DNA of 64,000 bases from a virus: IMG/VR virus record IMGVR_UViG_3300042397_001782, positions 55,981 to 119,980 of that record; one strand, 5' to 3'. Every line of letters begins with the position of its first letter. The first letter of the stretch is position 1. Below the pieces are notes generated by a model. The model was not told where the DNA came from. It saw only the letters and a program-made list of their open reading frames with translations, and ran no database searches. The position numbers and the translations under genes were made by a program. Shown piece by piece: positions 566 to 58,629 of the stretch.

Positions 566-596
566 TTTTTATGATTTTTAAAGTGTTATAAATTTT

Positions 597-962: not shown

Positions 963-983
963 TGGTTTACTTTTTTAAGATAT

Positions 984-1013: not shown

Positions 1014-1029
1014 AAGCCTCTGTAATTAA

Positions 1030-1875: not shown

Positions 1876-1907
1876 ATTGTTACTTTTTTAAAGATTTTAA
1901 AATAATA

Positions 1908-1938: not shown

Positions 1939-1956
1939 CTGTTAATAGTTGTTAAT

Positions 1957-2628: not shown

Positions 2629-2689
2629 TCTATCCCGTTTATTTATTCAGTTTTGACGGGTTACTGGGTTTTTAATTTAAAGATATTAA

Positions 2690-2854: not shown

Positions 2855-2888
2855 ATTGATTATATTTATTTGGTTATGAATTATAGTG

Positions 2889-2918
2889 CAAAGATAGTAC
2901 ATATACAGAACTTGTCAA
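2889..2918 (-). promoter_or_regulatory. Bacteroidota-type promoter, leftward
   Basis: Read leftward: TTG (complement of 2916-2918), 19-nt spacer, TATCTTTG (complement of 2889-2896). Both boxes match the Bacteroidota housekeeping consensus. It faces the leftward gene cluster; the expected transcript start is near 2882. Confidence 0.75.
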
Positions 2919-3489
2919 GCCCCCTAGACGTTAAAGATTGTAAAAAGATATTAATAAATGTAAACTAAAAGATCGCCCCTTTCTTAACACAATTTAACGA
3001 AACCACGCATATAACATTCTAAACTAAATACCCCCAATTATCTTGTTAAACTTTGTTAATGTTTCAGAGATCTATAATAGTATTTTGCTATATCTAAGCT
3101 ACTAGGATATTGATATGTAAATAGGCTTTAATGGGTGGATAGGGGCGAGAGTGGGTATAATAGGTCACTTACCCTTACCCACCAGAAAATAATCGCTTAG
3201 AACGCCTCTAATGAGATAATGTATAAATATATTCGGACAAATTTGTCTTTTTTTCCTACTGCTAGTTGCACTCCTCCCGTTTTCCCGCCCCTACTTTGCC
3301 CCTCCTCTGTACTTTGCACCCTGTCCGCCCTACTTTGTCCCGCCCTCAATATCCCGCCCCTGTATTGTGCGGGGATATGTAGCCACCCCACCCTATATAT
3401 ATTATTCTATTAGAACTCCCCTCCCCCCTCCGCCCTATGTATATACCCCGCCCTATATATACCCGCCTATGGATATTCTGTATACTAGT

Positions 3490-3553
3490 AGATAGACAGA
3501 CAGACAGACTAGACAGACAGAGAAACCCTAGAGACTATAGACTAGAGACTAGT
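3490..3553. repeat. GACA and AGACTA short tandem repeats
   Basis: ATAGACAGACAGACAGACT is followed by AGACAGACAG and then by several copies of AGACTA/GAGACTAG up to about 3553. This low-complexity tract lies within the C-rich half of the divergent region. Open frames crossing it look like composition artefacts. Confidence 0.7.
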
Positions 3554-3943
3554 CCACCACCACCCGCCCCCAGTCCACAGACTAGGCACAACGCCCACGC
3601 CCTAGAGATATTCCCCAAAACTATTTCTCGCTAATGGAAAACCGAGTTTTTGGAATTTATGGGAGGGTATTTGAAAATTGGGTCATGCATACGGGCTATG
3701 TTATTGATACACCCCACTTTTCATTCTCACATAACATACGGGGGGATAGTTTTTTTGTTCTACTGGGGGGGATATGATTTTGGGTAGGGCTAAAAAAATT
3801 TTAGGGGGGTGGGGGGTGTATAAAAAATAAAAAATTAGGGGGAGATTTTCGGGGGTTTGGTTATAGGTAAAACTTGCATATAAATAATTAAAGAAGCGTT
3901 AAAAAAAGTACCTAGGAAAATCAAGGGTTCCGAGAGGGTGAAA

Positions 3944-3982
3944 GTACATTTTTGTACTTTTCGTGTACATTTTTGTACTTTT
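3944..3982. repeat. Two 18-bp direct repeats, each with an internal palindrome
   Basis: GTACATTTTTGTACTTTT occurs at 3944-3961 and again at 3965-3982, a period of 21 bp (two helical turns). Each copy holds a near-palindrome (GTACA, TTTT spacer, TGTAC). About 10 nt further on, AAACCC (3992-3997) can pair with GGGTTT (4014-4019), followed by a T run to 4021. Tandem palindromic sites upstream of the promoter at 4077-4106 suit operator or iteron sites; this is inference. Confidence 0.6.
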
Positions 3983-4076
3983 GACCCGCTGAAACCCGCA
4001 TTTCTTCGTTGAGGGGTTTTTGGAAAAGGGTGTGATAAATGTGTAAAATAAATTCTTTCTAATAGAAAAATAATTC

Positions 4077-4106
4077 TTGCTATTTGTATAAAAGTTTGTA
4101 TCTTTG
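4077..4106 (+). promoter_or_regulatory. Bacteroidota-type promoter, rightward
   Basis: TTG (4077-4079), a 19-nt spacer, then TATCTTTG (4099-4106). The expected transcript start is near 4113, ten nt before the ATG at 4123. This leaves no room for an earlier start codon and fixes the start of the next gene. Confidence 0.8.
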
Positions 4107-4122
4107 CAGAAATATTAAAAAT

Positions 4123-4551
4123 ATGAAAAAATTAGAAATAGGAACTAGAGTATTTGATATTAGATGGGGGTGGGGAGAAGTTGTAGAATATAGGGAAGAT
4201 TTTAATGAAATTTCCTATCCTATTATTGTTAGGTTTGATGGAAAGGGAATAAGTACATACACTCTAAGTGGGGTACATAGTATGGGGGATTCATCTCCTC
4301 TATTATCTCTTACAGAATATTCTTTAGAGAACGGGGGCTTCACTGATATAAGTGAGTGGGGTAAGCCTAAGGTGGGGGATTTGGGGTATTTCTGGAATTA
4401 TGAGACTAAATCTTTTGTATTCTATTCTAAGCTAATAGGTATTGATAGTTCTTCCACATACAAATATACTATGGCAGATAGTACTGATTGGACATATTTT
4501 AGCAAAGAAGTTCCAGAATGGTTTTTAGATAAAATAAATAAACAAATATAA
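4123..4551 (+). CDS. Hypothetical protein with KOW/Tudor-like N-terminus, 142 aa
   Basis: ATG at 4123 begins MKKLEIGTRVFDIRWGWGEVVEY. A longer frame opening with TTG at 4084 is rejected because that codon overlaps the promoter. Residues about 6-50 (GTRVFD, GWGEVVEY, YPIIVRFDGKGISTYTLSG) resemble the small beta-barrel pattern of phage proteins that begin with a GxxVFD...GxG...VxFD motif, a KOW- or Tudor-like fold. The rest is aromatic and soluble. As the first rightward gene after the divergent region it is probably expressed early. The function is unknown. Confidence 0.65.
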   Translation: MKKLEIGTRVFDIRWGWGEVVEYREDFNEISYPIIVRFDGKGISTYTLSGVHSMGDSSPLLSLTEYSLENGGFTDISEWGKPKVGDLGYFWNYETKSFVFYSKLIGIDSSSTYKYTMADSTDWTYFSKEVPEWFLDKINKQI

Positions 4552-4620
4552 AACAATTAGTTATGACGGTTGATATAGTGGAAATAGATGTATTAGGAGG
4601 ATAGAAAATAAATATATTGT

Positions 4621-5142
4621 ATGTACGAGAAGGTAATTAAATTAAAACATAACGAAAGGGCTGCTAAGATAGACTTAGACACTGGAGAAGTGGCAGAAGT
4701 GGCAGTGCATAATAGGGAAAAAAAGCAGCCAAAGGACCCTTCTATGAATTTCTTTATCAGTACTGAGAGTTATTCTAGATTTTTTACAAAGGCTTGGCAA
4801 TTATTAGAGACTCAAACCACTGATACAGAGTTTAAAGTGGCTTATAAGATGTCTATGATGGCTCATGCCTATACAAATAGTTTAGAACCATTAAGACCAG
4901 AGAGTACAATGAAGGAATTATCGGAGTTTTTCAATGTTGATAGGAGAAAAATACAGAATATAATTGAAAAATTATTTAAATTAGGGGTGATAGGAAAGTT
5001 TCAGGTGTATGATAGGTTTGAAAATCATCATAACTACTGGGTATTCAACCCTTATTTGTCTTTTAATGGAAAAATAATTAAAAAAGACGTACAAAGTTTA
5101 TTTAATAACACGCACTATGCGGCACTATCCCCTATTTTATAA
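4621..5142 (+). CDS. RepL-like winged-helix protein, probable replication initiator or regulator
   Basis: 173 aa. The N-terminus is charged. Residues about 75-125 (TDTEFKVAYKMSMMAHAYTN...STMKELSEFFNVDRRKIQNIIEKLFKLGVIGKF) read as a helix-turn-helix/winged-helix domain. The C-terminus (NYWVFNPYLSFNGKIIKKDVQSLFNNTHYA) resembles the end of RepL-type plasmid replication proteins, where NP(Y/F)...G precedes a short helix. Such proteins bind an origin or act as regulators. Its place about 640 bp from a repeat pair and a skew switch suits origin binding, but a transcription regulator is an equal option. The start is the ATG at 4621; a 13-codon frame (4563-4604) lies upstream and was not called. Confidence 0.6.
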   Translation: MYEKVIKLKHNERAAKIDLDTGEVAEVAVHNREKKQPKDPSMNFFISTESYSRFFTKAWQLLETQTTDTEFKVAYKMSMMAHAYTNSLEPLRPESTMKELSEFFNVDRRKIQNIIEKLFKLGVIGKFQVYDRFENHHNYWVFNPYLSFNGKIIKKDVQSLFNNTHYAALSPIL

Positions 5143-5158
5143 ATAAATTAACATAACA

Positions 5159-5482
5159 ATGAGTGTAAGAGTTATCTGTATTGACGAAAAGAATAAGCCA
5201 AAGGAAATCCCAGCAAGTAAATGGGTGAAAGAACAAGAACTCTATCATATTCTAATGATATTCTATTCCATTCCCTCTAAAACAATGGCATACACTTTGG
5301 AAGAAATAGATCTTGACGAATCCTGTGCTCCTTATGGAGTATTTGATGCTAAAAGATTTGCCATACATCAGGATGATTTAGAGGAATTTATAGAACTTGC
5401 TAAAAATTGCACAGAGTTAAATGATATTGAGATAAAGGAATTAATTGAACAAGAAGAATTTGAAATAATAGAAAATGAATAA
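5159..5482 (+). CDS. Hypothetical acidic protein, 107 aa
   Basis: ATG start (MSVRVICIDEKNKPKEIPASKWVKE) 16 nt after the RepL-like gene. The first 25 residues look like a beta hairpin of the kind seen in small phage proteins (VRVICIDEKNKPKEIPASKWV). The C-terminal half is a run of acidic helices (LIEQEEFEIIENE). No catalytic motif or membrane span is seen. It overlaps the next gene by 8 nt, so translation is probably coupled. Confidence 0.65.
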   Translation: MSVRVICIDEKNKPKEIPASKWVKEQELYHILMIFYSIPSKTMAYTLEEIDLDESCAPYGVFDAKRFAIHQDDLEEFIELAKNCTELNDIEIKELIEQEEFEIIENE

Positions 5483-5654
5483 CATAGCATATTGTATAGG
5501 GGGTATTCTCATTATATTGAAGGCATTAGGATATATACAAGATTTGTCTTGGTGGTGGTGTACGTTTCCTTTTTGGATAGAAATAGTTTCTATAATTGTT
5601 GTTGTGGGAGTTATTAATGTAATGGGAATATTAAAAGAATTTTTTAATTCATAA
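5475..5654 (+). CDS. Small two-segment membrane protein, 59 aa
   Basis: ATG at 5475 lies inside the end of the previous gene (8-nt overlap) and the frame runs to TAA at 5652-5654. The product begins MNNIAYCIGGILIILKALGYI, followed by a Trp-rich turn (DLSWWWCTFPFWIE) and a second hydrophobic run (IVSIIVVVGVINVMGIL). The pattern of a Trp-rich loop between two hydrophobic segments is common in small phage inner-membrane proteins. The function is unknown. The next gene begins 4 nt after its stop. Confidence 0.7.
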   Translation: MNNIAYCIGGILIILKALGYIQDLSWWWCTFPFWIEIVSIIVVVGVINVMGILKEFFNS

Positions 5655-5658
5655 GGAC

Positions 5659-5886
5659 ATGGAGTTTGAGATAGATTTCAATAGACACAATAATGATAGA
5701 TTTCTAATTGATAGATTAGGTGCTTGGGTGGATAGATATGATGATTTTGACGCTATTAAGATAGAAATAAAAGACTTAGAGGAATTAGAAATGCTTTTAG
5801 CAAAAGTAAATCACTGTTTAGGAGGGGAGTATTCTGCAATAGTTTCTTTCGATCCTCCCGCTATATTCTTAGATGACAAAGTTTAA
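5659..5886 (+). CDS. Hypothetical acidic protein, 75 aa
   Basis: ATG at 5659 with GGAC just before it. The product is rich in Asp, Asn and Ile (MEFEIDFNRHNNDRFLIDRLG...), with a helix around residues 35-55 (IKIEIKDLEELEMLLAKVNHCLGG) and a hydrophobic end. It is soluble and shows no motif. It belongs to the tightly spaced rightward operon that begins at 4123. The function is not recognised. Confidence 0.6.
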   Translation: MEFEIDFNRHNNDRFLIDRLGAWVDRYDDFDAIKIEIKDLEELEMLLAKVNHCLGGEYSAIVSFDPPAIFLDDKV

Positions 5887-5910
5887 TCATTAAAATTAAA
5901 ATATAAAAAA

Positions 5911-6099
5911 ATGGCAGAAATAATTATTACAGACTTACAAGGAAATAAACAAACTATATCTTTTCCTGAAAAATTTAATATAGAGGTGGGGGAGTATAAA
6001 ACCACAGATGTCATCTCTAGGGAAACTTTTATTAGGAAGATTCAAGATTTAGTGTCTTTTTCTAACTTTTTAAATGAAAAAACTGTTTTTAAGGAGTGA
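5911..6099 (+). CDS. Hypothetical small protein, 62 aa
   Basis: ATG with an A-rich leader (aaatataaaaaaatg). The product (MAEIIITDLQGNKQTISFPEKFNIEVGEYKTTDV) begins like a small beta-rich domain and ends in a helix (RKIQDLVSFSNFLNEKTVFKE). There is no membrane segment. It ends with TGA, as do several genes here, consistent with the standard code. The function is unknown. Confidence 0.6.
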   Translation: MAEIIITDLQGNKQTISFPEKFNIEVGEYKTTDVISRETFIRKIQDLVSFSNFLNEKTVFKE

Positions 6100-44240: not shown

Positions 44241-47200
44241 ATGGCAGAGCAAAATAATAATAAAACAAGAAGTTTACAAGATATAAAAAACTATACCTTC
44301 ACCAAAGGTATGAATGATGACGCTTCTCCAGAAGCACAGCCTGCAGATACCTACAGAGCCGCTTTAAACATGGTGAAAGAATCCTCTGAAGGAGATGAGA
44401 ATTTTCTCACCACAGAATATTCTAATGCATTTAGAATCAAGTTGCCTGGAAAAGTTTTACATTCTAACTTGATTAAGCAATTAAATCAAGTTGTAGTCTT
44501 CTTGCACACAAATGAAATAGGATTATATGACCCTAATTTAAATACTTATACTAAGTTATATGCTTCTCCTGGTTTAAATTTTTCAATATATATAGATTCT
44601 GTATCTTTTACAAAAACAGAATGTGAAGATGTTGTATTAATTTTTTGGGACTCAGTAAATAGAGTGCGAAATATTAATATATCTAAATTTATAAAAGAAG
44701 GGCCTGGTGATGGTCCTGTTGAGGAATTAGAGTTATTTAAAACTGCAGACACTTGTATTAATTTAAGTGATGTAAGTTTTATAGAAAATGCTGCTTATAA
44801 TGTAGACGCAGGAGTTTATAGACCTTTTATTCAATATGAAGATGAGGATGGTAATACTACTAATTATTATATAATAAATGAAAATATACCTTTAATAGAA
44901 GATGGTACAAATGGTACCTATGAGTACATTGATGGGAATGAGTCTAAAATTTTAAATAAAAGTATTGTACTAAAATTTGATAATGTAGACACTAAATATC
45001 CTTTTATTAACGTAGGGTTTATAAAAACAGTTAATGGAGTGCCCACTGCTTTTATTTTTAAAAGAAAGCAACCTACAAATATTTTTTCTACAGTAACGTA
45101 TGAAGGAGATACTACTTTTATTCAAACTGTAGATATTGCAGAAGTTCTAACTAAAAGAGCTTTTTATTTATCTGCAAAAACAGGTTTAATTTATAATAAT
45201 AGTTTACTATTAGGAGGATTAAAAGGTAAAAGAAATGTTGATTATCAACAATATGCAAATAAAATTTCTGTAAAATATGTAACAGGAAGAATTAATTTAA
45301 GTAGAACAAAGGGATATAAAAATCCTGAACATATTATTCACCATAAGTCTTGGATGAGGGATGAAAATTATATGTTAGGTATTGTATTAGAGTTTGAAGA
45401 TATGTCAGAATCTGCTGCATTTCCTTTAATAAATAAACAATATACTCCTTTTCCTGAATTTACAGGTTCGGGAGGTCCTAGACCTGAGACAAATGATACA
45501 AAATTATGTTGTACAGATGATAGAGTTTATTGGAAAGAAGTTAATACAGCAAAAAGAACTGCATATAATCATTTTGCAGGAGACCTTAGTGTAACAGATT
45601 TTTGTTCAGGAACTATAGATAATAATTCTAACAATATTAGATCTGAGGGTTATTTAGGTTATTTTGAATCAGAAGAAAAATATCCTGTTATATTAAGATG
45701 TGGAGCTTCTCCAGGGTCATTAGATGTTAATGATTATATGTATCCTGTAGATACTAGCACTGGAAAAGCAATAGGAAAAAATATTACATTATTTAAAATG
45801 CCAGACTCTACTATTGAGCCTTTCCACAATAATATAATAGATGATTTTGCTATTGAAGATAATAAAAATAGATTTGATAGTAAATATGATAATTTAGAAA
45901 TTTATCCTTTAGGTTTAAAACTAGAGAATATAGAGTTTCCTACACTAGAAGAAACAGATGGGGTAAAAGTTACAGGATATAGAATTGTATATGTAAGGAG
46001 AGACACTTTTAATAAGTCAGTACAAGATAAAGGTTGGTTTGTTGAGATGTTTAAAAATAATCTTAATGGCACAGATTATATTTATCCTAAACATAATGTT
46101 AATTCTGGAGCTAAGTGGGATTATTTTTCAAATCTTAGAGATAGAACTATTGAAAGCTCTAGCCCTATACAAGATTTTGTAAGAAACTGTGGATATGGAA
46201 AACACTATGATAATGGTATAATATTTTATGGGGGTAATACATTATTTTCTCAACTAGGAGTTAATGTTAATCATGTTAAAATAGAGCAACAATATAATAC
46301 AACAGGTTATTATATAGATTCTGTTAGAGGTCAAAATTCTGATAGGTTTAGTACTATAGGAGATAATACTTATGACCCTTCTACATTTTTAGATAAAGAT
46401 GGTAGATTTAGATCTGCTTCAATACAAATTTATAATTTATATAATTATGGATATGACCAAAAGTCGGATGGAACTTTAGATAGAAGTAGAGGCTATTTTA
46501 ATAGAACAGAAGTTATTTATCAATTTAAAAATATTTGTACAGATAACTATTCTTATGTAAATGATAATGTCATTCTTAATAAAATTTTAAACTCAGATTT
46601 TTCTTTAGTTAATTTTTACAGAGAAAGTGGGTTTTATTTAGATTTTAATAACCCTACAGACTTATCATTTAATAAAAATTATAGAGAGTTTAATAATCAA
46701 ACTTTTACAGTAGCGAGTACTACTACAGTAACTATACCTCTTAATACTTTTTTATCTCCAGGGCAAATTGTAACAATATCTAATTTAGGGGGTTGTAATA
46801 CTACTTCTGTATTTGGCCCAGTAGGTAGACAATTTACTGTTATTAATGGTACAACATTACAAGTAATAGGAACTCCTTTTACTTTGGCTCAAGTTGGTTT
46901 AAGTTGTAATACTATTGACTATGATGTAAGTACTTCTAGACAATATTTTAATTCAGATTCTAGTGCAAAAAAATGTAATTGTACTACTTTATTTGATAAT
47001 ATTGTAGAAAATATAATTGGTGGAATAGGGGTAAGATTGTTGACAGCAACTTCAACATCTGATATATTAGTACCTATTCCTCCCGCTACATCTTTTCCTA
47101 CAACAATAACTGATTATCCTAACGGAACAATATTTACTATTAATGCAGTGTCTCCTCCTACTGTTCCTTTTTTAGCTGGAGATAAATATAAATGGAATAG

Positions 47201-49532
47201 TACATTAAATCAATTAGAAAAACAAAGTCCTTATTATAGTCCAATACCTTCTCCTCTTCCTATAGATACTACTTTAGATTTTGAAGCAGATACATGGGTA
47301 AACCAAACTTTTACAGTCCCTGCTGGACTTGGAAAAATAATTAATTATGCTAACTCTTTACCTACAGGTTCTCAAATAACTATTATAAATAGTCCAGGAT
47401 CACCATTGGCAAATGGGCAATCTTTTATTGTAAGTAGTACTACTCAAATAACTTATACAGGATTTTTTAATTTAGATGGGGGCAGTTCAGGAGTAACACT
47501 ATCAAATGTTTCTATTAGAGTTAATTTAATGCCTGGAAATAGCGATCAATATTTTTTAGAAAATTATTTAGATAATGCTACTTCTACAAATATTTTAAAT
47601 GATTGTAATACAGGGTATATTTACTATGGTTCCATAAAAAATAACTTACCTAGACAATATGGAAGTATTGATGATATGTTTTTTATTGATACAGGGTTGA
47701 AAGGATGTGCTGGTCAAAACAGTTTGATAGGATTTTATGGAGATAGTTATATTAATACTTTTTCTTTTGTAAGAACAGGTGTTACAGGAATGTTAGAAGA
47801 TTCTATTATAGATGATAATAGTGCTACATTTGCAGATAAATTTGACCCTAAATATACTATAAATAATATAATAGGGGCAAGCAATAGGTCTTATTTATTA
47901 AATTTATACTTAGCTCAAAAAGCAAATATAACTTTATTAAACACTGTTACAGAGTCTGATGTAAACTTAGATTTAAGATATGAAGGGCCTACTTTTAATG
48001 AAGTGTATTATCCTAAATTAGCTAATGGTAAATATAAATTATTTTCCACTAGAAAAATTGAATATGCAGAAGACTGTTATTTAAATACTTATTTTTATGA
48101 ACTATTTTGCAATAATAAAAATGATAATTGTACAACTAGTGCGACTGAATTCATAGAATATAATGATGCCTATAGAAATTTCCATGATAATAAAATAAAC
48201 TTAAATAATGATTATAATGAATTAAATGGTATGAGATTTAATCTTATTAAACCAATTAATTCTACATATAAAACTTGTGAGTGTGATACTGAATTTGACA
48301 ATAGAATTGCAATTTCTTCTAAAGATAATCAATCTATTAGTCAATTAAATTATAGTAAATTTTTACCAAATGATTTTATTACACTACCTCATAAAGAAGG
48401 AAAGATAACTAATTTATTTAAAGAAAACCAAGTACTTTATGCACATACCACAGATAATGTTTGGAAATTACTTACATTAGAGTCTAGGCTTCAAGCGGAT
48501 AATAATCAAGTATATTTAGGAACTAATAATTTATTATCCAGTCAATCTCTAGAATTATTTGCTTCTAATGAAGGATATATGGGATTACAAGATAAAAGAT
48601 TTTCATTCCAAAATAATACTGGATATTTCTTTGCAGACTTAAAAACCCAAACATTAAATCTAATGTCAGGGGGAAGGTTAGATGCTATTTCTACTTATGG
48701 TATGAACAGCTTCTTTAAAAACCAATGGAATACATACTTTAATTCTTATGGGGCTTCTACAAACTCTAATTTGCCTATTATACCTCAATCAAACCCAGAT
48801 TTGTCCACAGTGGAGATTTATTTTGGATATGATTATAGACATAAAAGACTTCTTCTAACGGATAAAACAAACGGATTTACCCTTAGTTATTACCCAGAAG
48901 ATAAGGCATTTTATTCTTTCCATTCGTATCTACCAATGGCGTATCTTCAGAATAGAGACACTTTCTTTACTCAGAATGATAATTATGACGTTTATATACA
49001 TCAAGATAACTTTAATTCTTATAGAAAATTCTATGGTGTTAATTACCCTTCTTTAATTGACGGAGTATTTACCTATCATCCATTAGTATACACAACACTT
49101 AATAATGTTGGTATGAAAATAGATGCCTATAAAAATGTTAACGGTCAGCTATTGATTACCAATGAAGTACCTACAAGTTTACAGGTTTGGACTAGCAGAC
49201 AACATAGTGGGGAAGTTTTCTTAAAAACTCCTATTAACGCTGATTACATGGAGAATGTTGTATTAAATAATCAATTTCACAACATAATAAATGGGGTTGT
49301 ATATTGTAACAACTTGGCTAACTATGTGTTAGACGATACTATTAATTTTTTGAATGGGGATATTTTTCCAGTTCCTAATGCCAATGTAAGTTTTTCTAAG
49401 GATTGGACCCAAGTAGATAGGCTTGAGAATAATTTCTTTAACTATCGAATCAGTATAGATAACAAAGATTTAGAAAATTTAAAATTTATACTTAAATTTA
49501 CAGTTCTTAATTACAATATATCCATGCGTTAA
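44241..49532 (+). CDS. Giant tail protein (crAss-like muzzle/stabilisation type), 1763 aa
   Basis: The N-terminus (SLQDIKNYTFTKGMNDDASPEAQPADTYRAALNMVKESSEGDENFL) has the motif KGMN.D..PE...YR.A.NM that I associate with the long tail-stabilisation or muzzle proteins of crAss-like phages. The rest is beta-rich and Asn/Thr-heavy, with repeated blocks of strands over 1700 residues. The C-terminal part (DISFKNQW-like, then LTDKTNGFTLSYYPEDKAFYSFHSYLPMAYLQN) resembles repeated beta sheets. No enzyme motif is seen. It overlaps the next start by 1 nt. Confidence 0.7.
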   Translation: MAEQNNNKTRSLQDIKNYTFTKGMNDDASPEAQPADTYRAALNMVKESSEGDENFLTTEYSNAFRIKLPGKVLHSNLIKQLNQVVVFLHTNEIGLYDPNLNTYTKLYASPGLNFSIYIDSVSFTKTECEDVVLIFWDSVNRVRNINISKFIKEGPGDGPVEELELFKTADTCINLSDVSFIENAAYNVDAGVYRPFIQYEDEDGNTTNYYIINENIPLIEDGTNGTYEYIDGNESKILNKSIVLKFDNVDTKYPFINVGFIKTVNGVPTAFIFKRKQPTNIFSTVTYEGDTTFIQTVDIAEVLTKRAFYLSAKTGLIYNNSLLLGGLKGKRNVDYQQYANKISVKYVTGRINLSRTKGYKNPEHIIHHKSWMRDENYMLGIVLEFEDMSESAAFPLINKQYTPFPEFTGSGGPRPETNDTKLCCTDDRVYWKEVNTAKRTAYNHFAGDLSVTDFCSGTIDNNSNNIRSEGYLGYFESEEKYPVILRCGASPGSLDVNDYMYPVDTSTGKAIGKNITLFKMPDSTIEPFHNNIIDDFAIEDNKNRFDSKYDNLEIYPLGLKLENIEFPTLEETDGVKVTGYRIVYVRRDTFNKSVQDKGWFVEMFKNNLNGTDYIYPKHNVNSGAKWDYFSNLRDRTIESSSPIQDFVRNCGYGKHYDNGIIFYGGNTLFSQLGVNVNHVKIEQQYNTTGYYIDSVRGQNSDRFSTIGDNTYDPSTFLDKDGRFRSASIQIYNLYNYGYDQKSDGTLDRSRGYFNRTEVIYQFKNICTDNYSYVNDNVILNKILNSDFSLVNFYRESGFYLDFNNPTDLSFNKNYREFNNQTFTVASTTTVTIPLNTFLSPGQIVTISNLGGCNTTSVFGPVGRQFTVINGTTLQVIGTPFTLAQVGLSCNTIDYDVSTSRQYFNSDSSAKKCNCTTLFDNIVENIIGGIGVRLLTATSTSDILVPIPPATSFPTTITDYPNGTIFTINAVSPPTVPFLAGDKYKWNSTLNQLEKQSPYYSPIPSPLPIDTTLDFEADTWVNQTFTVPAGLGKIINYANSLPTGSQITIINSPGSPLANGQSFIVSSTTQITYTGFFNLDGGSSGVTLSNVSIRVNLMPGNSDQYFLENYLDNATSTNILNDCNTGYIYYGSIKNNLPRQYGSIDDMFFIDTGLKGCAGQNSLIGFYGDSYINTFSFVRTGVTGMLEDSIIDDNSATFADKFDPKYTINNIIGASNRSYLLNLYLAQKANITLLNTVTESDVNLDLRYEGPTFNEVYYPKLANGKYKLFSTRKIEYAEDCYLNTYFYELFCNNKNDNCTTSATEFIEYNDAYRNFHDNKINLNNDYNELNGMRFNLIKPINSTYKTCECDTEFDNRIAISSKDNQSISQLNYSKFLPNDFITLPHKEGKITNLFKENQVLYAHTTDNVWKLLTLESRLQADNNQVYLGTNNLLSSQSLELFASNEGYMGLQDKRFSFQNNTGYFFADLKTQTLNLMSGGRLDAISTYGMNSFFKNQWNTYFNSYGASTNSNLPIIPQSNPDLSTVEIYFGYDYRHKRLLLTDKTNGFTLSYYPEDKAFYSFHSYLPMAYLQNRDTFFTQNDNYDVYIHQDNFNSYRKFYGVNYPSLIDGVFTYHPLVYTTLNNVGMKIDAYKNVNGQLLITNEVPTSLQVWTSRQHSGEVFLKTPINADYMENVVLNNQFHNIINGVVYCNNLANYVLDDTINFLNGDIFPVPNANVSFSKDWTQVDRLENNFFNYRISIDNKDLENLKFILKFTVLNYNISMR

Positions 49533-52500
49533 TGGCTAAAGGTAAAAATAAACTTAATAAACCTAATTCTTCAGGGTGGTTGGATAACTACTCTGAGGAA
49601 TTTTCTATTAGTAAATATGCTGATGGAGATAGAGTTATTGACCCTTTACTTTCTCCTGGACAGCTAGCTCAACTAAATAAATTAAAAGAATTATCAAAAA
49701 AACTTCCAAAAGATGAAGAAATTCTTTTAAAACAAATGCAAAATAAAAGAGCTCAAGATAAATTATCTGTTTCAAAAGAAAAAACTACTGCTGATAAATT
49801 AAAAAAGCTTGTTAGAGAGCCTGTTACTACATTAGCAGACCAAGCTGAATATAATAATTTTGATTTATTATTTGGTACTCCAGGAAGAGTAGGTACAGGT
49901 ATATATAGTACTGTTGGTAATTTATTAACTCCTTCTACTTATCCTACATTAGGAAAAGGTGCGGTTAATTTAGTTAGTAATGCTTTAGCAGATAAAAATG
50001 TTTATGAGGGAGTTAATGAAGATGCTAGTAAAATATTAGGAGAAGGGTTAGATATTTTAGATATAATAGATATGGGAGTGGCTTTAAAGTCTTTGCCTTA
50101 TTTAAATAAATATATACCTAACTCTAAACAACTATCTGGTTCTAGTATAACTTCTTCTGTAGAGGATGTTGGTAAAGGTTTTAAATCAGAAATAGATAAT
50201 ATTAGTTCTGATATTTTAAAACTAAGGGAGGAAAAAACCCTTTATGAAAATAATTATAAAAACCTTATTAGTAGATATAAAAATAAAGAAATAACTCCTG
50301 AACAATATAAGATAGAGTACCAAAAAATATTACCAAAAGATGTGTATTTATTAGGGGATTTAGAGAAAAAAGTAAGAGAATTGCGAGTAAGACAAGATAT
50401 TTTTAACACTCCACAAAAAAATATATTAAACTCTAAAAACCAATTAGGTAAAAATATATCCGATGGTGGGTCAAATAATAAAGGTGTTTTTGAAATTGGC
50501 GATAAGTATGTAGCAAAACTATCAGCACATGGATATGATGATGCAAGTAGATTGGTGAATTACGCTGATAAAATTAAGTCTTCAAGAATAATGAAAACAC
50601 ATCAAGTTAAAGATATAGATGGAAAAGTTTATTTAGTTCAAGATAAAGCAAAAGGCACTCCTTATACTAAATTATCAGAAAAAGACTTAAAAACTATTCC
50701 CAAAAATCAAATAGATAATTTTTATAATGATATTGCAGAATTAGAAAAAAATGGTTTAAATATAGATATTAGTGGGAATAAATCAAATATATTTTATGAC
50801 CCTAAAAAAGGATTTCAGTTTATAGATTTAGGAATAGGTAAAATGCCAGATATTGAAGATATAAATAAATTAGTTATTAAAAAACAAGATGGGGGAGAAA
50901 TAAATCAATATGAAGATGGTGGCAAATTAAAACAATATTTTAAACTTCCAACCAAACGTGTTGCTGTGGATAACACTTATAATAAGAATAGTCCAATAGG
51001 CAACAGTTCTGATGATAAGGAAATGGTTAACAGGTTGTTAATAGAAAAAGTCAACAACGCCCGAAAGGCTAAAGAAAATGAAGATGCAAAAAAATATGTA
51101 GAAAAAGACTTTAAAGAATCTGTAGATTTCTTTGAGAATTATTATAATTCTCCTAGATACAAAGAAATGTTAAAAAATTCTACAAATCTAGAAGATGTAT
51201 ATAATGAACAAAGAATAGATAATCTTAGAACTACTGCTGCATTTAGTAAAAATAATGATGAAGGAAATCCAAATAGTTTTGGATATTCTAATAGTTATTC
51301 AGGAGATATTTCTATTTTACCTGCGGGTAGGGGAGATAAATATACAATGACACATGAACTAAGTCATTCTTCTGATAGACCCTATATTTCTTCATTACCT
51401 AATGAATTATTTAAAGATTTAGGGTTAAAAACTAGATTTAATCCTACAAAATCTGTTTTAAAAAACGTATTAAATATTGGAACTACTAAAAATAGAGTAA
51501 TACCCTATTTAGATGAAATGAGAATTTTAGATAACCAAAAAAAGTTTGATTCAAAATTTCATTTAAATAAAAATAATATTAATGAAGAAAACTTTAATTC
51601 TTTTTATAGAAATTATGTAGGAGAGCCTACTGAAGTAAGAGCAAGGTTAATGGAAATTAGAAGAGGGGGACTAGACAATAATATTTATAATCCTTTTAAA
51701 GAAAAGGTTACTCCTGAAAATTATAAAAAATTAAAAGATTACTTTTATAAAAAAGATGACATAGATAGTCCAATTTTTGATTTAGAACAGTTATACGATG
51801 AAAATAAAGTTATAAAGTTTTTAAATGAAATTTCTGAAAACAAAGAGGAAGACACAGTTCCAATGGCTAAAAATGGAGGAGAAATAAACCAATATGAAGA
51901 TGGGGGCAAATTAAAACAATATTTTAAACTCCCAACCAAACGTGTTGCTGTAGATAACACTTATAATAAGAATAGTTTAAAATTAGACAGTTCTGATGAT
52001 AAGGAAATGGTTAACAGGTTATTAAGAGAAAAAGCCAATGAATCCCAAAAGGCTAAAGAAAAAAGGATAGCTGATGTAAGAAGGCTAGAAGAGTTAAATC
52101 AGAAATCTATGTTAGAAACTGCAAATGCAAAAGATTTGTATGACATAGGAGAAGGGATGAAAAGTAAATATAGATTTTCAAATGAAGACAACTTCTTTGA
52201 TGACTATATTAACCCACTTAATATGGTAGGGGGAATGGCTGGAGGATTAGCTCAAACTCCAGAATTAATTAACCAAGGAGAGTATTTAAATGCAGCATTA
52301 AATGTAGGATTACCTTTAACCGTTGGGGCTTTAGCAGGTATTGGCACTCAAAATACAGGACAGTTTGTAAATAACTTAATTAATCCTTTAGCTGATGTAA
52401 GTGATAAACTTTTAAAAAAACAATCAGTACAAAAATTTTTAAAAACCCCTCGTTTTGATTTAGGTCGTAAAGAGTTTTTACCAGAATCTTTATCTTTTGA

Positions 52501-54586
52501 TTATCAAGATTTAGGTGATGAAAATTTTGCTGTTTTATTAAAAGACCCTAATAATAAAATCCAAGCAAATCTTTCTTTATTTAAAGAAGATGAAGATTGG
52601 TATAAGCCTAGAATGATTACAGTAAAAGAAATTCTTCAAGGACATAAAATACAAGATATTTTATATCAAAAAGGTATTGAAGAAGTTAGAAAAAAAGGCT
52701 TAAAAGGTATTAGAAGTGGGGATTATTTAATGGAACCAGAAAAAACTATAAAAGCTCAAAATAGATTTATTAAAGAAAATTTACTGCCTGATGCTAGTAC
52801 ACAAAATAAAAATTTACCTATAGTAGGATTATTAAACCATAAAAATCCAAATTTATATGAAGATTTTTTTGCATATTATGCTACTATACCTAAAGAAATA
52901 AAATATAAACATTCTATAAAAGAATTGTATGATAGTTTTAAAAATATACTACCAGGTAATAAATCTACAAAAGCTTTAGAGTATTTAAATGGTGGTACCA
53001 TAAATAACAATATGAAAAATAAAAAAACTAAAAAATATCCTGCAGGAGGTTATCTTAATTATCAAGAAGGATATAAAGGATTCGGTATGGGTCCTGAATT
53101 ATATCAAGATAATTCATACTTTAGATCAGTAATGCCTGACAATATTGAAGATATGGAAGAAATGATTAATAAACCAAGCGTATTTTCAGGAATTAATGAT
53201 GTATTAGGTTCTGTAAATCAAGGAGTTAATCAAGTTACTGGGTTAATGAGTAAATTTCAAAATCCACAAACAGGTATGACTAATACAGGTATGATTAATC
53301 CTGAACAAGCTTTTATGCAAAATTATCAAAGTACTCCAGGAAAAAAAATAGATATTAACGATCCTGCTAACCTTACAGATTTTGAAGATTTTGATATGTC
53401 AAATCTTTGGTCAGATTATTTTAATCCTTCAAAATCATCTAATCCTTTTCCCTCAAATTTATTAAATTCAGTTGCACCTCCAGCTAAAAATGGAGGTTAT
53501 TTAAAAAAATACCAAGATGGAGGAGAAATGGATATGTTGCCTGTGGGTGCCCCAGAATATATTCATAAAAGCAATGTATTTAATGAACAGTATAATCCTG
53601 TACCGAGAGTACATTTTAGTGATGATACTACTGCTTATGATATGGGAGTAAATCTAAATGATTTAGTAAATATGAACGGAGGTAGAATAAGACAATATGC
53701 AGGAGGTGGTTTTGCAGAAATGTATGGTAATAGTTATGGCGGGGCATCTAGTTCTCCTAGATTATTTAATGCAAATACAGGTAGAGCAACTTTAGGAGAA
53801 TTACAAGCTGCTACTCAAAATGATTTTTTAAATACAAAAGTAAGAAATGATAGACAACAGTTTGTAGATGATAAAGTAGATTGGGGTGCATTTAACTTTT
53901 TAAAACAACCTGCAGGATTTGTATTAGGTAGATTAAGTGAAGTACCGATTGTAGGAAATATTACTAAAAGTGCTTTAGGAGATTCTTTTTTAACAAGAAC
54001 AAAAGGTTACACAGTAGGGTCTGGTGTAGGAAAAACTATTACGGGGGTTGGAAAAATTGCTGGAGGTATAGCTACAGGTAATGTTGGTATGGTAGGTAGT
54101 GGTATTGGAGATGTAGGTTCAGGAGTTGGAAGTACTTATGGTAATTTAGCTGCTAGAGATGCTATGTCAGATTATAATAAATCAGGCTATGTTTCAAATA
54201 AAAGACTTGAAAAAGCTTCCCAAGATTTTGGTAATATGATGGATACTGCTTCAGGGTTATTTGGTAACATAAAAGGAGGAGTAGGTATGGCTAAAAATAT
54301 GGGGGGAATGGAAGGAATGTTTGGAAATATGAAAGGAGGCCAAACAGGTATGAAAGGATTTGGTAATTTTATGGGTAATTTGACAGGATTTAGAAACGAA
54401 GATGGAGGCATGTTAGATTATGAATATACTATGGTTCCTGAGTTTAAAAAAGGAGGACTTACTCCTAGTAAAGCAGAGAAAATGTTACACGATAAAAGTT
54501 TTACTACTGATAAACAAAGAAAATACTTTGGTTATATAGCTTCACAAAATAAAAAAACTGAGGGTGGTTGGTTAGACTCTCTATAA
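49532..54586 (+). CDS. Large virion protein with kinase-, metallopeptidase- and acetyltransferase-like segments, 1684 aa
   Basis: Order by residue: 1-300 helical; 318-435 kinase-like (GVFEIGDKYVAKL, VQDKAKGTPY, Asp412 in DISGNKSN, FIDLG at 430-434); a 60-aa linker at 453-515 (GGEINQYEDGGKLKQYFK...); about 520-770 metallopeptidase-like with HELSH at 608-612; a second copy of the linker at 782-845; about 990-1083 acetyltransferase-like (ITVKEILQGHKIQDILYQKG); 1150-1684 with several GG...Y..GG motifs and a C-terminal KAEKML...QRKYFGYIA segment. It is probably a packaged or ejected protein. All domain calls are by eye. Confidence 0.6.
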   Translation: MAKGKNKLNKPNSSGWLDNYSEEFSISKYADGDRVIDPLLSPGQLAQLNKLKELSKKLPKDEEILLKQMQNKRAQDKLSVSKEKTTADKLKKLVREPVTTLADQAEYNNFDLLFGTPGRVGTGIYSTVGNLLTPSTYPTLGKGAVNLVSNALADKNVYEGVNEDASKILGEGLDILDIIDMGVALKSLPYLNKYIPNSKQLSGSSITSSVEDVGKGFKSEIDNISSDILKLREEKTLYENNYKNLISRYKNKEITPEQYKIEYQKILPKDVYLLGDLEKKVRELRVRQDIFNTPQKNILNSKNQLGKNISDGGSNNKGVFEIGDKYVAKLSAHGYDDASRLVNYADKIKSSRIMKTHQVKDIDGKVYLVQDKAKGTPYTKLSEKDLKTIPKNQIDNFYNDIAELEKNGLNIDISGNKSNIFYDPKKGFQFIDLGIGKMPDIEDINKLVIKKQDGGEINQYEDGGKLKQYFKLPTKRVAVDNTYNKNSPIGNSSDDKEMVNRLLIEKVNNARKAKENEDAKKYVEKDFKESVDFFENYYNSPRYKEMLKNSTNLEDVYNEQRIDNLRTTAAFSKNNDEGNPNSFGYSNSYSGDISILPAGRGDKYTMTHELSHSSDRPYISSLPNELFKDLGLKTRFNPTKSVLKNVLNIGTTKNRVIPYLDEMRILDNQKKFDSKFHLNKNNINEENFNSFYRNYVGEPTEVRARLMEIRRGGLDNNIYNPFKEKVTPENYKKLKDYFYKKDDIDSPIFDLEQLYDENKVIKFLNEISENKEEDTVPMAKNGGEINQYEDGGKLKQYFKLPTKRVAVDNTYNKNSLKLDSSDDKEMVNRLLREKANESQKAKEKRIADVRRLEELNQKSMLETANAKDLYDIGEGMKSKYRFSNEDNFFDDYINPLNMVGGMAGGLAQTPELINQGEYLNAALNVGLPLTVGALAGIGTQNTGQFVNNLINPLADVSDKLLKKQSVQKFLKTPRFDLGRKEFLPESLSFDYQDLGDENFAVLLKDPNNKIQANLSLFKEDEDWYKPRMITVKEILQGHKIQDILYQKGIEEVRKKGLKGIRSGDYLMEPEKTIKAQNRFIKENLLPDASTQNKNLPIVGLLNHKNPNLYEDFFAYYATIPKEIKYKHSIKELYDSFKNILPGNKSTKALEYLNGGTINNNMKNKKTKKYPAGGYLNYQEGYKGFGMGPELYQDNSYFRSVMPDNIEDMEEMINKPSVFSGINDVLGSVNQGVNQVTGLMSKFQNPQTGMTNTGMINPEQAFMQNYQSTPGKKIDINDPANLTDFEDFDMSNLWSDYFNPSKSSNPFPSNLLNSVAPPAKNGGYLKKYQDGGEMDMLPVGAPEYIHKSNVFNEQYNPVPRVHFSDDTTAYDMGVNLNDLVNMNGGRIRQYAGGGFAEMYGNSYGGASSSPRLFNANTGRATLGELQAATQNDFLNTKVRNDRQQFVDDKVDWGAFNFLKQPAGFVLGRLSEVPIVGNITKSALGDSFLTRTKGYTVGSGVGKTITGVGKIAGGIATGNVGMVGSGIGDVGSGVGSTYGNLAARDAMSDYNKSGYVSNKRLEKASQDFGNMMDTASGLFGNIKGGVGMAKNMGGMEGMFGNMKGGQTGMKGFGNFMGNLTGFRNEDGGMLDYEYTMVPEFKKGGLTPSKAEKMLHDKSFTTDKQRKYFGYIASQNKKTEGGWLDSL
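50888..51071 (+). repeat. Direct repeat copy 1 (linker), about 180 bp
   Basis: Encodes GGEINQYEDGGKLKQYFKL, then TKRVAVDNTYNKNS...SSDDKEMVNRLL. It matches the copy at 51870-52060 almost exactly at DNA level for the first 110 bp, with only a few mismatches. It lies between the kinase-like and the metallopeptidase-like segments of the 1684-aa protein. Confidence 0.85.
51870..52060 (+). repeat. Direct repeat copy 2 (linker), about 180 bp
   Basis: Second copy of the linker, about 980 bp after copy 1, between the metallopeptidase-like and acetyltransferase-like segments. Both copies have the insert-like variation at the same point (after NTYNKNS). Confidence 0.85.
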
Positions 54587-54597
54587 AAAATAACAAT

Positions 54598-57204
54598 ATG
54601 AAAGAATTATTATTAAAACTTGCTAAAGTTAAAAATGAGAAGGAATTCTATAAAAAGTATCCTACTCAAGAAGCATTCTTTAAGGCACATCCTGAAGCAA
54701 AAGAAATTATTGCTCAGTATCAGCAAGAAATGATGGCAAATTCCCAAGAAGAAATGCAAGGTAATCCTGAAGCATCTATGGAAAAAATGGCACAAGGAGG
54801 TTTGATAAGAAGAGCAGATGGCTCTTACTCTCAAAGAGGGTTATGGGATAACATAAGAGCTAACAAGGGTTCAGGTAAAAAACCTACAAAAGAAATGTTA
54901 GAGCAAGCTAAGAAAATCCAAGCAGAAGAAATGATGTATGGAGGAATGATAGATGAATACGGAAATGGAGGTTACACTGTAAGAAGAAGTAATGATAGAA
55001 AAGGTAAAACACACGTTGTTACTGGCCCTGATGGTACTAAAAAATATTTCGGGGATCCTAATATGGGTGAAAGAAGTAAATCTAAGCATGGTAAAGAAGC
55101 TTTTTATGCGAGACATAAAACAAATTTAAAAAATAACCCTTATTTTAGAGCTTATGCAAGATCAACTTGGGAAGATGGAGGAATTCTTCCTGATATGCAA
55201 CAATTAATGTTAGCAGGACAAGACATGTATAATATGGGAGGATATGTAGAATATCCTACAATGTACCCTGGAGGGGGAATGATAGCAGGTCCTATGATGG
55301 GGTATGTAGATAATTTTAACTATGCTATGGGAGGAAGAATGTATGAGCAAGGCGGCATGATAAATAGCATGACACAAGGTATTCCTGTACAGACAGAAAC
55401 ATTTGAAGGACAGGCAGAACAAGTTGCTTTGCCTGATGGTACAATTAAGTCAGTAGATGCTACTACTACTCATGAAAATATGTCAGACGGAGAAGTAACA
55501 GATGTTTTACCAGGAGGTTCGCATATTCAAAGTGCTCGTAATAAACTTACTACTGATCAGTATGCACAGTTAATGCAAATGTTTAATCCTGAGAGTGCCG
55601 AACAAGATATTAAAAAATTATCACAAGTATATCAAAATAAATATGGTAAGAAGAATGGTAAAAAACTTTCTCCTGCTGATATTTCAGAATACGCTAAAAA
55701 TAAATACCAAACAAAATCTACTCCAAATGCATTTGATACTGATAAATTAAAAGAAGGAAATAAAAAAGCCTACTTGGAATTGAGTATGCAAATGAATGAT
55801 TTGATAAAGTCAGGAAAAGAAATTGCTGAAGGTAAAATGCCTGAACAAACACCAATGATGGCTTGGGGAGGAAATGTAAATAAATATGTTGGTGGAGGAG
55901 AAATTGATACTTTTTTAAGCCAATTATTAACCCCAGAAACCACTAATCTAATTAAAAACACTACTTTTGATGAAAGTAGAGGAAAATATAGATTAAATAT
56001 GGAGCCTAATATGAGTTTGCAGGAAAAAATGGGTTTAGCTGATGCTGCGGAAAGATTTGGTATCAATAATTTAGTACAAGGAAGAAATAAAGATTTTCCT
56101 AATTTTGTAGGGGGATTTACTCCACAAGATTTTGAAAAAAGAATTGTATATGCTAATGAAGGACCTAAAGGTTTAGAGAATAAATCAGATCTTGAAATAA
56201 GAAAAAAAGCTTTAAACTTAATGGGATACAAAGGTAATCTAAGTGATACTCAATTAAGTGATGTAAAGTCTTTATATAATGATCCTAGATTTAAAGAAAT
56301 CTATTCAAGTTTTACCAATTACCTTCCTTCTGATAAATTTAGAAAAACAAGAGGTAATGATTTTATGATGGGTGCTGAACATTTTGATGCTTTAGGAAAT
56401 TATGTAGAACCTCAGCCAATAACGGCTACACCAGCAATAATTGCTCAAACTCCTGGAGAAAAAGTTGCTGGCCCACAATTAGGTGCAACAACTCCTGTGT
56501 CACCAGCGGCCAGAATTCCTATGCAAAATAGATTTAACTTTGGATTACTTGAAGGTCAATTAGGTAGAGGTTTACAAGGTAATCAAGCTTACTTAAATGC
56601 AGCTATGAGTTTATCTCCTGTTTATACAATGGAAACACCTGATACTTTTATTAGAAGCAGAAGAAATGAAATTCCTATAGGAAATATATTATATAATATT
56701 GAAAGAGCACAAAGAAACTCTGCTAATGCTTTAGCAAATCAAACAGGAGATTGGAGCACATTGGCAGGTAATATTGCTAATGCTGGAGCACAAGCTTATA
56801 ATCAAATAGGAGATACTTTAAGTGCTCTAAATGAGAAAAATCTAGGGTTATATAATACAACTCAAGACTTACAACAAAATCTATTGAGCTCTAATGTAGG
56901 GGTAAGAAATCAAAATCTTACCAACATGCAAAATATGATGAATTATAAAAGGAACTTATCTGGACAAAAAGCTGTTAAAGATGCAGAACTATATTCTAAA
57001 TATGTAAAATCTATGTCTGAAAATTCTCAAGAAGAACAAAATCAAAAACTAGCAATGTTAAATATTATGGCTTCTAAACCAGATATGTTTAAAGGAGAAC
57101 AAGGACAAAGATTTGCAAATCAGATTATGGGTAATTACGGATCTTATAATAATCCTTTTGCAGGATCAGTATTAGATTTTGGATTAAGTAATTTATTTAA
57201 ATAA
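54598..57204 (+). CDS. Large virion protein with GG-rich motifs, 868 aa
   Basis: Start ATG 54598 (MKELLLKLAKVKNEKEFYKKYPTQEAFFKAHPEAK), with the leader aaaaaataacaat; an upstream TTG lies inside the previous gene and is rejected. Repeated motifs follow: AQGGLIRRADG, MYGGMIDEYGNGG, MGGYVEYPTMYPGGG, AMGGRMYEQGGM and AWGGNVNKYVGGG. A region at about 280-330 (QVALPDGTIKSVDATTTHENMSDGEVTDVLPGGSHIQSARNKL) resembles a segment I recall in other phage proteins. The last third is a helical structural region with a C-terminal Asn/Gln-rich end. Probably an ejected or cargo protein. Confidence 0.65.
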   Translation: MKELLLKLAKVKNEKEFYKKYPTQEAFFKAHPEAKEIIAQYQQEMMANSQEEMQGNPEASMEKMAQGGLIRRADGSYSQRGLWDNIRANKGSGKKPTKEMLEQAKKIQAEEMMYGGMIDEYGNGGYTVRRSNDRKGKTHVVTGPDGTKKYFGDPNMGERSKSKHGKEAFYARHKTNLKNNPYFRAYARSTWEDGGILPDMQQLMLAGQDMYNMGGYVEYPTMYPGGGMIAGPMMGYVDNFNYAMGGRMYEQGGMINSMTQGIPVQTETFEGQAEQVALPDGTIKSVDATTTHENMSDGEVTDVLPGGSHIQSARNKLTTDQYAQLMQMFNPESAEQDIKKLSQVYQNKYGKKNGKKLSPADISEYAKNKYQTKSTPNAFDTDKLKEGNKKAYLELSMQMNDLIKSGKEIAEGKMPEQTPMMAWGGNVNKYVGGGEIDTFLSQLLTPETTNLIKNTTFDESRGKYRLNMEPNMSLQEKMGLADAAERFGINNLVQGRNKDFPNFVGGFTPQDFEKRIVYANEGPKGLENKSDLEIRKKALNLMGYKGNLSDTQLSDVKSLYNDPRFKEIYSSFTNYLPSDKFRKTRGNDFMMGAEHFDALGNYVEPQPITATPAIIAQTPGEKVAGPQLGATTPVSPAARIPMQNRFNFGLLEGQLGRGLQGNQAYLNAAMSLSPVYTMETPDTFIRSRRNEIPIGNILYNIERAQRNSANALANQTGDWSTLAGNIANAGAQAYNQIGDTLSALNEKNLGLYNTTQDLQQNLLSSNVGVRNQNLTNMQNMMNYKRNLSGQKAVKDAELYSKYVKSMSENSQEEQNQKLAMLNIMASKPDMFKGEQGQRFANQIMGNYGSYNNPFAGSVLDFGLSNLFK

Positions 57205-57219
57205 TTAAATTAATAATTA

Positions 57220-58629
57220 ATGAGTCAAAGAAGAAACCAAGCAGGTATGTTTCCTGGAGCTTTTGGAGGGTTTTCTAGAATTGGAGAACAAGAGATGTAT
57301 GACCCTACTTGGGCCAATATAGATTTTGCAGATTTTAAAGGATTAGATATGAATCTAATAAATGAAAATGCTAAATTTTCTCAAGAAGTAGCAAACGATA
57401 GGTTAAAAGATATTTTAAAGCAAAGAGATGCTATTTTAGATAAAGTAAAATTACATAAAAGATATAGTGATTTACAAGGACAATTGGATAATAAGCTAGG
57501 ATCTATTATAGATAATATGGGTAATGTTCAATTATCTGATGCTGCAAATTACACTGCGTTAAATACTAATTTAATTAAAACTAAAAATGACCCTGTTTTA
57601 CAAAATGCTGTAAAAGTTTCAGAAGAGGCTATGGCTTATGAAAAATATAAATCAGAACACCCTGAAATTGCAGATCAAGCTTGGAATAATGGAGGATTAG
57701 AAAACAATAATGAAATTAATTTTCAAAGATTTTTGAGAGGAGAAACAAATGATTTTCAGTTCAATCCAGTATATAAAGAATACGATTTACAGGCTAAAGC
57801 AGATGCTTTTGCTAAAGATCTTCCTGCTGAAGAGAGAAACTCTATAGAGAAGTATGGAGTATATGGATTGCAAGAAAAAGCAGTAGAAGATAAATCAGTT
57901 GCAAGAGTTCAACAAGCTTTTGAAGGATTTAAACAAGGTTTGATGCAAGATCCTGAATTTCTATCTTGGTATAATAGAAGAGGTAAATATGAGCAAAATA
58001 GAGGAGGAAGTATTGATGACGTAATTAATAATATGTTTAAATCTTCTGCTGCTAGATATGGTACATCTACACCAAATATTAAAGTAAGTATGCCTAGAGA
58101 AAACCCTGATATTGGAACGAGAATACAAATTGCTGAAAATGCTAGAGCTCAGGGAAGATATGATGCAGAGGTAGAAGAAGGTACTTTAGGTGGAGGAAGG
58201 GGTAACAATTCTGCTACAGGGCAACCTTATGTAAATTATAATGATAGTACTTTTAATCCTGTAGGTAATGAAACCACTTTAATTCAGGCAGATAAAATAA
58301 ATACATTAAAAAATTTATTAAACAAATCTCAACAAACAGGAAGCGAGGGGGCTAAACCTATTTTATTATCAGATCCTAATAAAGATAATATAGTTAGAGA
58401 TAAGAAAAAAGAAGCAATAAGATATACCTCAGAGTATCAGCCAACAGGTTATTTTACAAAAGGTAATAATAATAATGTTTTTGTAGAAGTAAAAGGAAAA
58501 GACGATAAAATATATTATGTTCAGTATGATCAAGGTACTTTTGAAAGAAATGTAGTAGGAGTTCCTGCTAATACTACTACTTCAACTAACACTAATACAG
58601 ATCCTTTAGGATTAGGAATAAAAAAATAA
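57220..58629 (+). CDS. Large helical virion protein, 469 aa
   Basis: Begins MSQRRNQAGMFPGAFGGFSRIGEQEMYDPTWANIDFADFKGLDMNLINENAK. It is largely helical with many Asn, Gln and Asp (KLHKRYSDLQGQLDNKLGSIIDNMGN). The C-terminal part is strand-like (TGYFTKGNNNNVFVEVKGKDDKIYYVQYDQGTFERN). No catalytic motif is seen. Placed between two large cargo-like proteins, it probably belongs to the same group. Confidence 0.6.
   Translation: MSQRRNQAGMFPGAFGGFSRIGEQEMYDPTWANIDFADFKGLDMNLINENAKFSQEVANDRLKDILKQRDAILDKVKLHKRYSDLQGQLDNKLGSIIDNMGNVQLSDAANYTALNTNLIKTKNDPVLQNAVKVSEEAMAYEKYKSEHPEIADQAWNNGGLENNNEINFQRFLRGETNDFQFNPVYKEYDLQAKADAFAKDLPAEERNSIEKYGVYGLQEKAVEDKSVARVQQAFEGFKQGLMQDPEFLSWYNRRGKYEQNRGGSIDDVINNMFKSSAARYGTSTPNIKVSMPRENPDIGTRIQIAENARAQGRYDAEVEEGTLGGGRGNNSATGQPYVNYNDSTFNPVGNETTLIQADKINTLKNLLNKSQQTGSEGAKPILLSDPNKDNIVRDKKKEAIRYTSEYQPTGYFTKGNNNNVFVEVKGKDDKIYYVQYDQGTFERNVVGVPANTTTSTNTNTDPLGLGIKK

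Follow-up and report, generated by a model that had tools for sequence, protein, structure and literature searches.

The locus and its phage

The window, that is, the whole stretch of DNA that was analysed, is the final 64 kb of a 119,980-bp virus contig (G000). It contains the gene of a tail "muzzle" protein, used here as the marker of the locus, and directly downstream of it the gene of a long mosaic protein, P0001 (Table 1). A long ORF after the tail genes had been reported in the preliminary description, and this is confirmed by a frame free of internal stops with the muzzle gene upstream. The muzzle protein is 72-77% identical in relatives that have a different cargo. Matches to phage families were obtained for the terminase, the portal and the major capsid protein, and the terminase and capsid are nearest to those of Crassvirales and crass-like phages of Cellulophaga, Flavobacterium and Bacteroides. 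Homologues of TerL, portal, major capsid protein and muzzle are found in crassvirus order. Full-length P0001 gave no usable match in Pfam and PHROGs, and no match in a tblastn search of named phages.

PhicrAss001 has the cargo genes gp45 and gp46 after its muzzle gene (gp44); the cargo has been found in virions by mass spectrometry, and parts of gp45 have been resolved inside the head and the tail by cryo-EM (PMC10172136). Gene-order comparison places P0001 in the slot of gp45. The assignment of the P0001 scaffold as a C1-type cargo protein is positional, because homology to gp45 consists of a weak, pairwise-only hhalign signal (P 0.02) between the constant C-terminus and the membrane-like region of gp45. 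The genes upstream of the mosaic proteins in L017, L022, L026 and L027 match muzzle-type PHROGs 37948/15100, with two small ORFs intervening in L026, and the slot is therefore conserved across distant phages.

The gene that follows P0001 probably encodes a second mosaic cargo protein, and its counterparts in relatives have 913, 1089 and 1216 residues. A conserved stretch, KGKTHVVTGPDGTKKYFGDP, is present in this ORF. Positions 1-6067 of G000 align with window positions 52826-57983. The first bases of the contig thus belong to a second, diverged allele of the cargo gene, and its other end lies beyond the first allele; both alleles are on one contig. G000 seems to cover a circular or permuted genome of about 109 kb more than once, in a mixed population, unless it is chimeric.

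Table 1. Features of the putative cargo locus in the window
Feature	Position	Strand	Evidence or remark
Tail muzzle protein gene, 1763 aa, locus marker	44241..49532	+	PHROG 15100 virion structural protein, E 2e-39
Mosaic protein P0001, putative cargo, 1684 aa	49532..54586	+	ORF call and relatives
Constant N-terminus, residues 1-32 (SSGWLDNYSEEFSISKY)	49532..49627	+	kept in relatives, sequence after it differs
Helical lead-in (33-205) and coiled-coil-like stretch (206-300)	49628..50431	+	relatives
Kinase-like module, residues 301-446	50432..50869	+	conserved E321, Q370, D412, N419, D432-L-G434
Linker copy 1 (DGGEINQYEDGGKLKQYFK)	50886..51078	+	89% DNA identity to copy 2
Predicted zincin metallopeptidase module, residues 520-780	51089..51871	+	H608, E609, H612, E701
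Linker copy 2 (NGGEINQYEDGGKLKQYFK)	51870..52062	+	89% DNA identity to copy 1
Hydrophobic helical segment, residues 861-960	52112..52411	+	common to L041; hydropathy peak at 919
Third module (earlier "acetyltransferase"), residues 975-1153	52454..52990	+	close copies only
Junction linker ALEYLNGG	52988..53016	+	site of the switch from one allele to the other
Constant C-terminal region, residues 1153-1684	52988..54583	+	YxxGG repeats, glycine-rich membrane-like segment
Second YxxGG-bearing, probably cargo-type protein, 878 aa	54568..57204	+	6 YxxGG vs 0.7 expected

Constant ends and modules of P0001

The constant N-terminus is retained in L002, L003, L010, L031, L036 and L041, and the constant C-terminal region is 52-67% identical in L001, L003, L010 and L011. 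L036 has the two joined directly, with zero modules. The lead-in at residues 33-205 also occurs in L031, where it stands before an ART-like module, and a lead-in similar to the stretch at 206-300 occurs in L017/L022. Residues 785-954 are 94% identical to L041, in which a different HExxH module comes after the hydrophobic helical segment.

The zinc metallopeptidase of the preliminary description has held up, with HELSH exactly at residues 608-612. From sequence, the identity of this module as a zinc metallopeptidase is strongly supported. The four residues listed in Table 1 are invariant in eight aligned module sequences (the window, L010, L026, L027, L028, Cellulophaga phage phi4:1 and the two copies of Cellulophaga phage phi14:2). 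The module has the HExxH motif and the Glu on a later helix that are expected of a zincin-like metallopeptidase, and the Glu helix is predicted with a pLDDT of 82-93. An HExxH motif arises by chance in 0.6% of P0001 shuffles, and HExxH with a downstream ExxAR[LV] in 0 of 2000. A profile built from uncultured zincin modules detects phi14:2 g070 with an E-value of 9e-10 and further matches within g070, and a BFVD fold search returns structural proteins of phi14:2 and phi4:1 (probability 1.0, E 1e-4 and 1.2e-3). The PDB gave no zincin match for the model, which is confident only in the Glu helix and the leading helices.

The peptidase module occurs twice in phi14:2 g070, and phi4:1 gp041 has a phage tail lysozyme (5e-32) and two HExxH motifs, one of which is aligned as a copy of the module. 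In both phages the gene is the next one downstream of the giant tail gene, and virion MS/MS proteomics is cited in its record; this is the strongest evidence that the peptidase module family is a virion component. The proposal that P0001 is a virion protein agrees with the annotation of these homologues in two cultured phages as well as with its own position in the crassvirus cargo slot. The zincin and kinase profiles gave no match in the PhicrAss001 genome, nor did a profile search of genome contigs with the kinase and zincin alignments. No common family is detectable between the HETGH module of L041 and the zincin of the window. In the zincin-lysozyme region of L027 (4965-11564) and L028 (2857-7449), pN (about 0.08) is higher than pS (about 0.03), which hints at diversifying selection.

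Another zincin-type module (HEMTH, EEIYSRL), likewise with GG linkers, was seen in cr109_1 gp90 (L029 5488-6759), from a gut Suoliviridae crassvirus. This gene lies near the portal and capsid genes, and its annotation says no more than hypothetical protein. In-frame TAG codons are present in its frame, suggesting stop-codon recoding.

The kinase-like segment is located where it had been reported, while its identity as a kinase is moderately supported by sequence and fold matches that are consistent but below threshold. A PDB search gives APH(2'')-Id with a whole-sequence E-value of 0.001, the best single stretch reaching only 0.23, and an NCBIfam search gives XopAU (E 0.007) and APH(2'') (E 0.009). 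OspG, NleH2, SteC, APH(2'') and MELK stand at the top of the Foldseek list, for which the query was a poor model (pLDDT 46) and every E-value is at least 0.05. A dN/dS of 0.11-0.24 indicates purifying selection on the module.

The truncated kinases of polyvalent proteins have no C-lobe, a Glu before strand 2 and a Gln in the last N-lobe strand (PMC5512222). The P0001 module stops at about residue 446, 12 residues past DLG, and is followed by the linker; in relatives the differing sequence begins at this same end point. E321 and Q370, which are conserved in all three kinase-like sequences, correspond to this Glu and this Gln, the strand positions being taken from a low-confidence model. The module is compatible, as far as its residues can tell, with a truncated kinase of this kind. 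For the insert that such kinases have between a conserved His and Asp, the catalytic His was not identifiable among the three similar sequences. D412, N419 and D432 are conserved, and kinase activity is uncertain because the equivalent of K329, the ATP-lysine position, is Arg in L017 and L022.

For the third module only near-identical copies were found in the sequence collections searched. Residues 990-1083, which had been read as an acetyltransferase, are present as sequence, but the GNAT label is not supported: no GNAT was found in Pfam, PHROG, NCBIfam, the PDB or hhalign. A comparison with the polyvalent-type GNAT of Mycobacterium phage Alice gp113 showed no similarity, with few sequences and little power. 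AlphaFold gives a pLDDT of 23-38 across most of the module, too low for a fold search to speak for or against a GNAT, and both structure predictions are poor overall (mean pLDDT about 46).

Module exchange among relatives

Relatives retain the N-terminus of about 32 residues, the C-terminus of about 530 residues, or both, and the modules between them vary. The contigs of the close relatives are all metagenome assemblies, in which repeated linkers may produce chimeric joins. The window has the kinase-like module, the zincin and the third module. L001 has these plus a transglycosylase-like module, and its N-part is 99.7% identical to the window. L002 combines a transglycosylase-like module with another without fold assignment, L003 a transglycosylase-like module with DUF5872 (1.7e-14), and L010 a transglycosylase-like module with a zincin; L004 equals L003 in length and match pattern. 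L031 has the ART-like (ADP-ribosyltransferase-like) module, which was named by eye, and L041 the second-type HExxH module (HETGH) and a transglycosylase-like one. The label "transglycosylase-like" denotes the conserved pattern QE[ST]..GK..NLGH..YNG, with no profile match behind it. Matches to SctB2, YbaB and UBC9 were judged to be chance.

Modules differ in L031 and L041, whose muzzle is 96% identical to that of the window, and TerL is 97% (L003) and 90% (L010) identical in phages whose modules nonetheless differ. The kinase-like module is shared by distant phages: it is 76% identical in L022, whose TerL is only 26% identical to that of the window, and 72-74% identical in L017, in whose contig no TerL was detected. 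The cassette organisation proposed earlier is borne out, as modules are swapped between constant ends and at linkers, and the same locus in related phages has different modules between the linkers, as had been predicted.

The duplication of the linkers, also described before, holds at the DNA level (Table 1). The copies are 984 bp apart and share at least 27 consecutive identical residues, at 454 and 782. Identity between the window and L001 is 99.9% along the 9.5 kb that end at position 53016, in the EYLNGG linker, where the two abruptly diverge; beyond this switch L001 is 99.7% identical to the start of the window's own contig. L002 is 77-81% identical to the window upstream and 99.2% over 52336-54339. 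Out of 71 protein breakpoints, which are clustered within each protein and for which independence between proteins is not given, 29 lie within 6 residues of a YxxGG-type motif (8% expected) and 44 within 15 residues (16% expected). The motif is clearly enriched in only 2 of the 20 window ORFs, P0001 and the next gene. Switch points of a second class lie after the helical lead-ins, at residues 205 and 954. YxxGG was also considered as a protease site; Gly-Gly-X processing occurs in some other viruses.

Several further segments were observed in the relatives. L027 has DUF2272 and phage lysozyme modules. In L031 (15289-16383) the ART-like module (FMYRGLNEEGF...TPYFTPNFSTAQSYG) stands in place of the kinase-like module, and the preceding 205 residues are 92% identical. 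L017 (4610-11500) encodes a mosaic protein of 2293 residues with the kinase-like module, an HEFGH zincin-like segment, a Pol-beta nucleotidyltransferase-like segment (GSSVLVTEAGMPHITGDIDVLI) and a duplicated linker of its own, ISGATDPVTGD. The cargo ORF of L041 (15289-17901) ends near the contig edge and its last 130 or so codons stand out (GFFHTGAYQDAISGYGGIKHCLIPSPKHVIIDRD). We take these codons to resemble the C-terminus of the arginine decarboxylase SpeA, and they may be either a capture or an assembly chimera.

Possible function of the putative cargo protein and known systems

P0001 is probably an ejected cargo protein in the virions of a Crassvirales phage, made of a constant scaffold and exchangeable enzyme cassettes. 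The constant N-terminus and the C-terminus of about 530 residues would be the virion or ejection scaffold, and the cassettes between these ends would have Y/F-x-x-G-G linkers or helical lead-ins at their borders. Cassettes may be swapped, added and removed when near-identical linkers, or conserved lead-ins, undergo homologous recombination. P0001 would be packed in the head or tail and would exit before or with the DNA, bringing its modules along; its slot and the MS/MS annotation of homologues point to such delivery into the host. The payload would be cell-wall enzymes for entry in some relatives, and a zinc peptidase, a kinase-like module and the third module in the window. We infer packaging and ejection as well as enzymatic activity and targets. 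It is more likely that part of the cargo acts on the cell wall during entry rather than on host proteins, because the modules of relatives include several lysozyme- or transglycosylase-like domains.

P0001 could also be a tail or ejection structural protein with modules used solely for assembling the virion and penetrating the wall, which we regard as unlikely. The zincin would then process its own polyprotein, lysozyme-like modules would open peptidoglycan, and the kinase-like and third modules would be degenerate spacers. Modules of the transglycosylase-like, phage lysozyme and tail-lysozyme types do occur in relatives, two of the three kinase-like modules have Arg at the ATP-lysine position, and autoprocessing by such zincins was proposed by Iyer et al. 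in 2017 (PMC5512222). However, purifying selection on a kinase-like module common to distant phages is odd for a spacer, and the module-free L036 implies that self-processing is dispensable. A tentative case can be made for the modules as cytoplasmic anti-defence or anti-host effectors (peptidase, kinase and acetyltransferase) with host takeover as the main function; the preliminary description had proposed a multi-effector cargo that modifies host proteins when infection starts. The same classes of enzyme are found together in polyvalent proteins, for which injection is presumed (PMC5512222), the folds nearest to the kinase model are injected effector kinases, and one pair of relatives has a higher pN than pS across the peptidase-lysozyme region. 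The lack of support for a GNAT and of a known target weighs against such effectors, as do the many sister modules that resemble cell-wall enzymes rather than enzymes of cytoplasmic proteins.

It is very improbable that the exchange of modules stems mainly from errors of metagenome assembly at the repeated linkers. The linkers are indeed near-identical repeats of 40-190 bp, and the window's contig exceeds one genome length and holds two alleles of the cargo gene. However, the same junctions are found in separate contigs (L001 and the start of G000; L003 and L004; the window and L002), modules differ between phages that are divergent along the whole locus (L003, L010 and L036), and module differences are also seen in the finished genomes of cultured phi14:2 and phi4:1.

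As a probable cargo protein with exchangeable cassettes, P0001 is best classed with the "polyvalent proteins" described by Iyer et al. (2017), as a crassviral form of them on a putative scaffold for ejection from the virion. Polyvalent proteins have several unrelated enzyme domains per polypeptide, with a zincin-like peptidase as the commonest hub, and include a truncated kinase family from Bacteroidetes prophages; injection with the DNA is presumed, cassette recombination has been suggested in Verrucomicrobium, and crAss is not mentioned (PMC5512222). P0001 resembles them in its zincin, its kinase-like module of truncated type, its presumed injection and its at least two unrelated enzyme-type domains, the second activity resting on the moderate kinase evidence. 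P0001 departs from polyvalent proteins in its constant crassvirus scaffold, whose slot behind the muzzle gene is fixed, in a recognisable boundary motif (YxxGG) and in the natural occurrence of empty, module-free versions. PhicrAss001 C1 (gp45) and C2 (gp46) share with P0001 the order after the muzzle, the abundance of GG and a membrane-like glycine-rich segment, but the profiles detect no such enzyme modules in that genome. The products of phi14:2 g070 and phi4:1 gp041 are alike in the slot after the giant tail gene, tandem zincin modules, GG linkers and MS/MS annotation, and differ in having no kinase-like module and no constant N- or C-terminus of the P0001 type; gp041 has the added tail lysozyme. 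Delivery of an enzyme from the virion is a concept that also applies to T4 Alt and other injected head enzymes, but these are single-activity and non-mosaic.

Crassviruses dominate the human gut virome. To our knowledge, the structure of their ejected cargo has been described but its function has not. There is perhaps an even chance that crassvirus-like phages of Bacteroidota have a polymorphic ejection-cargo locus, with a constant virion scaffold protein encoded beside the muzzle gene, at which recombination loads and exchanges cassettes at YxxGG motifs, giving a strain-specific injected payload. If so, the locus would correspond, in phages, to polymorphic toxins and would be a natural cargo for protein delivery that can be reprogrammed. 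The YxxGG boundaries offer a candidate rule for finding modules in otherwise unannotated virion proteins, and phages with an equal scaffold and a differing payload form a natural experiment. A constant-ended cargo with interchangeable enzymes and natural empty versions is a place to look for the entry and counter-defence functions of crassviruses.
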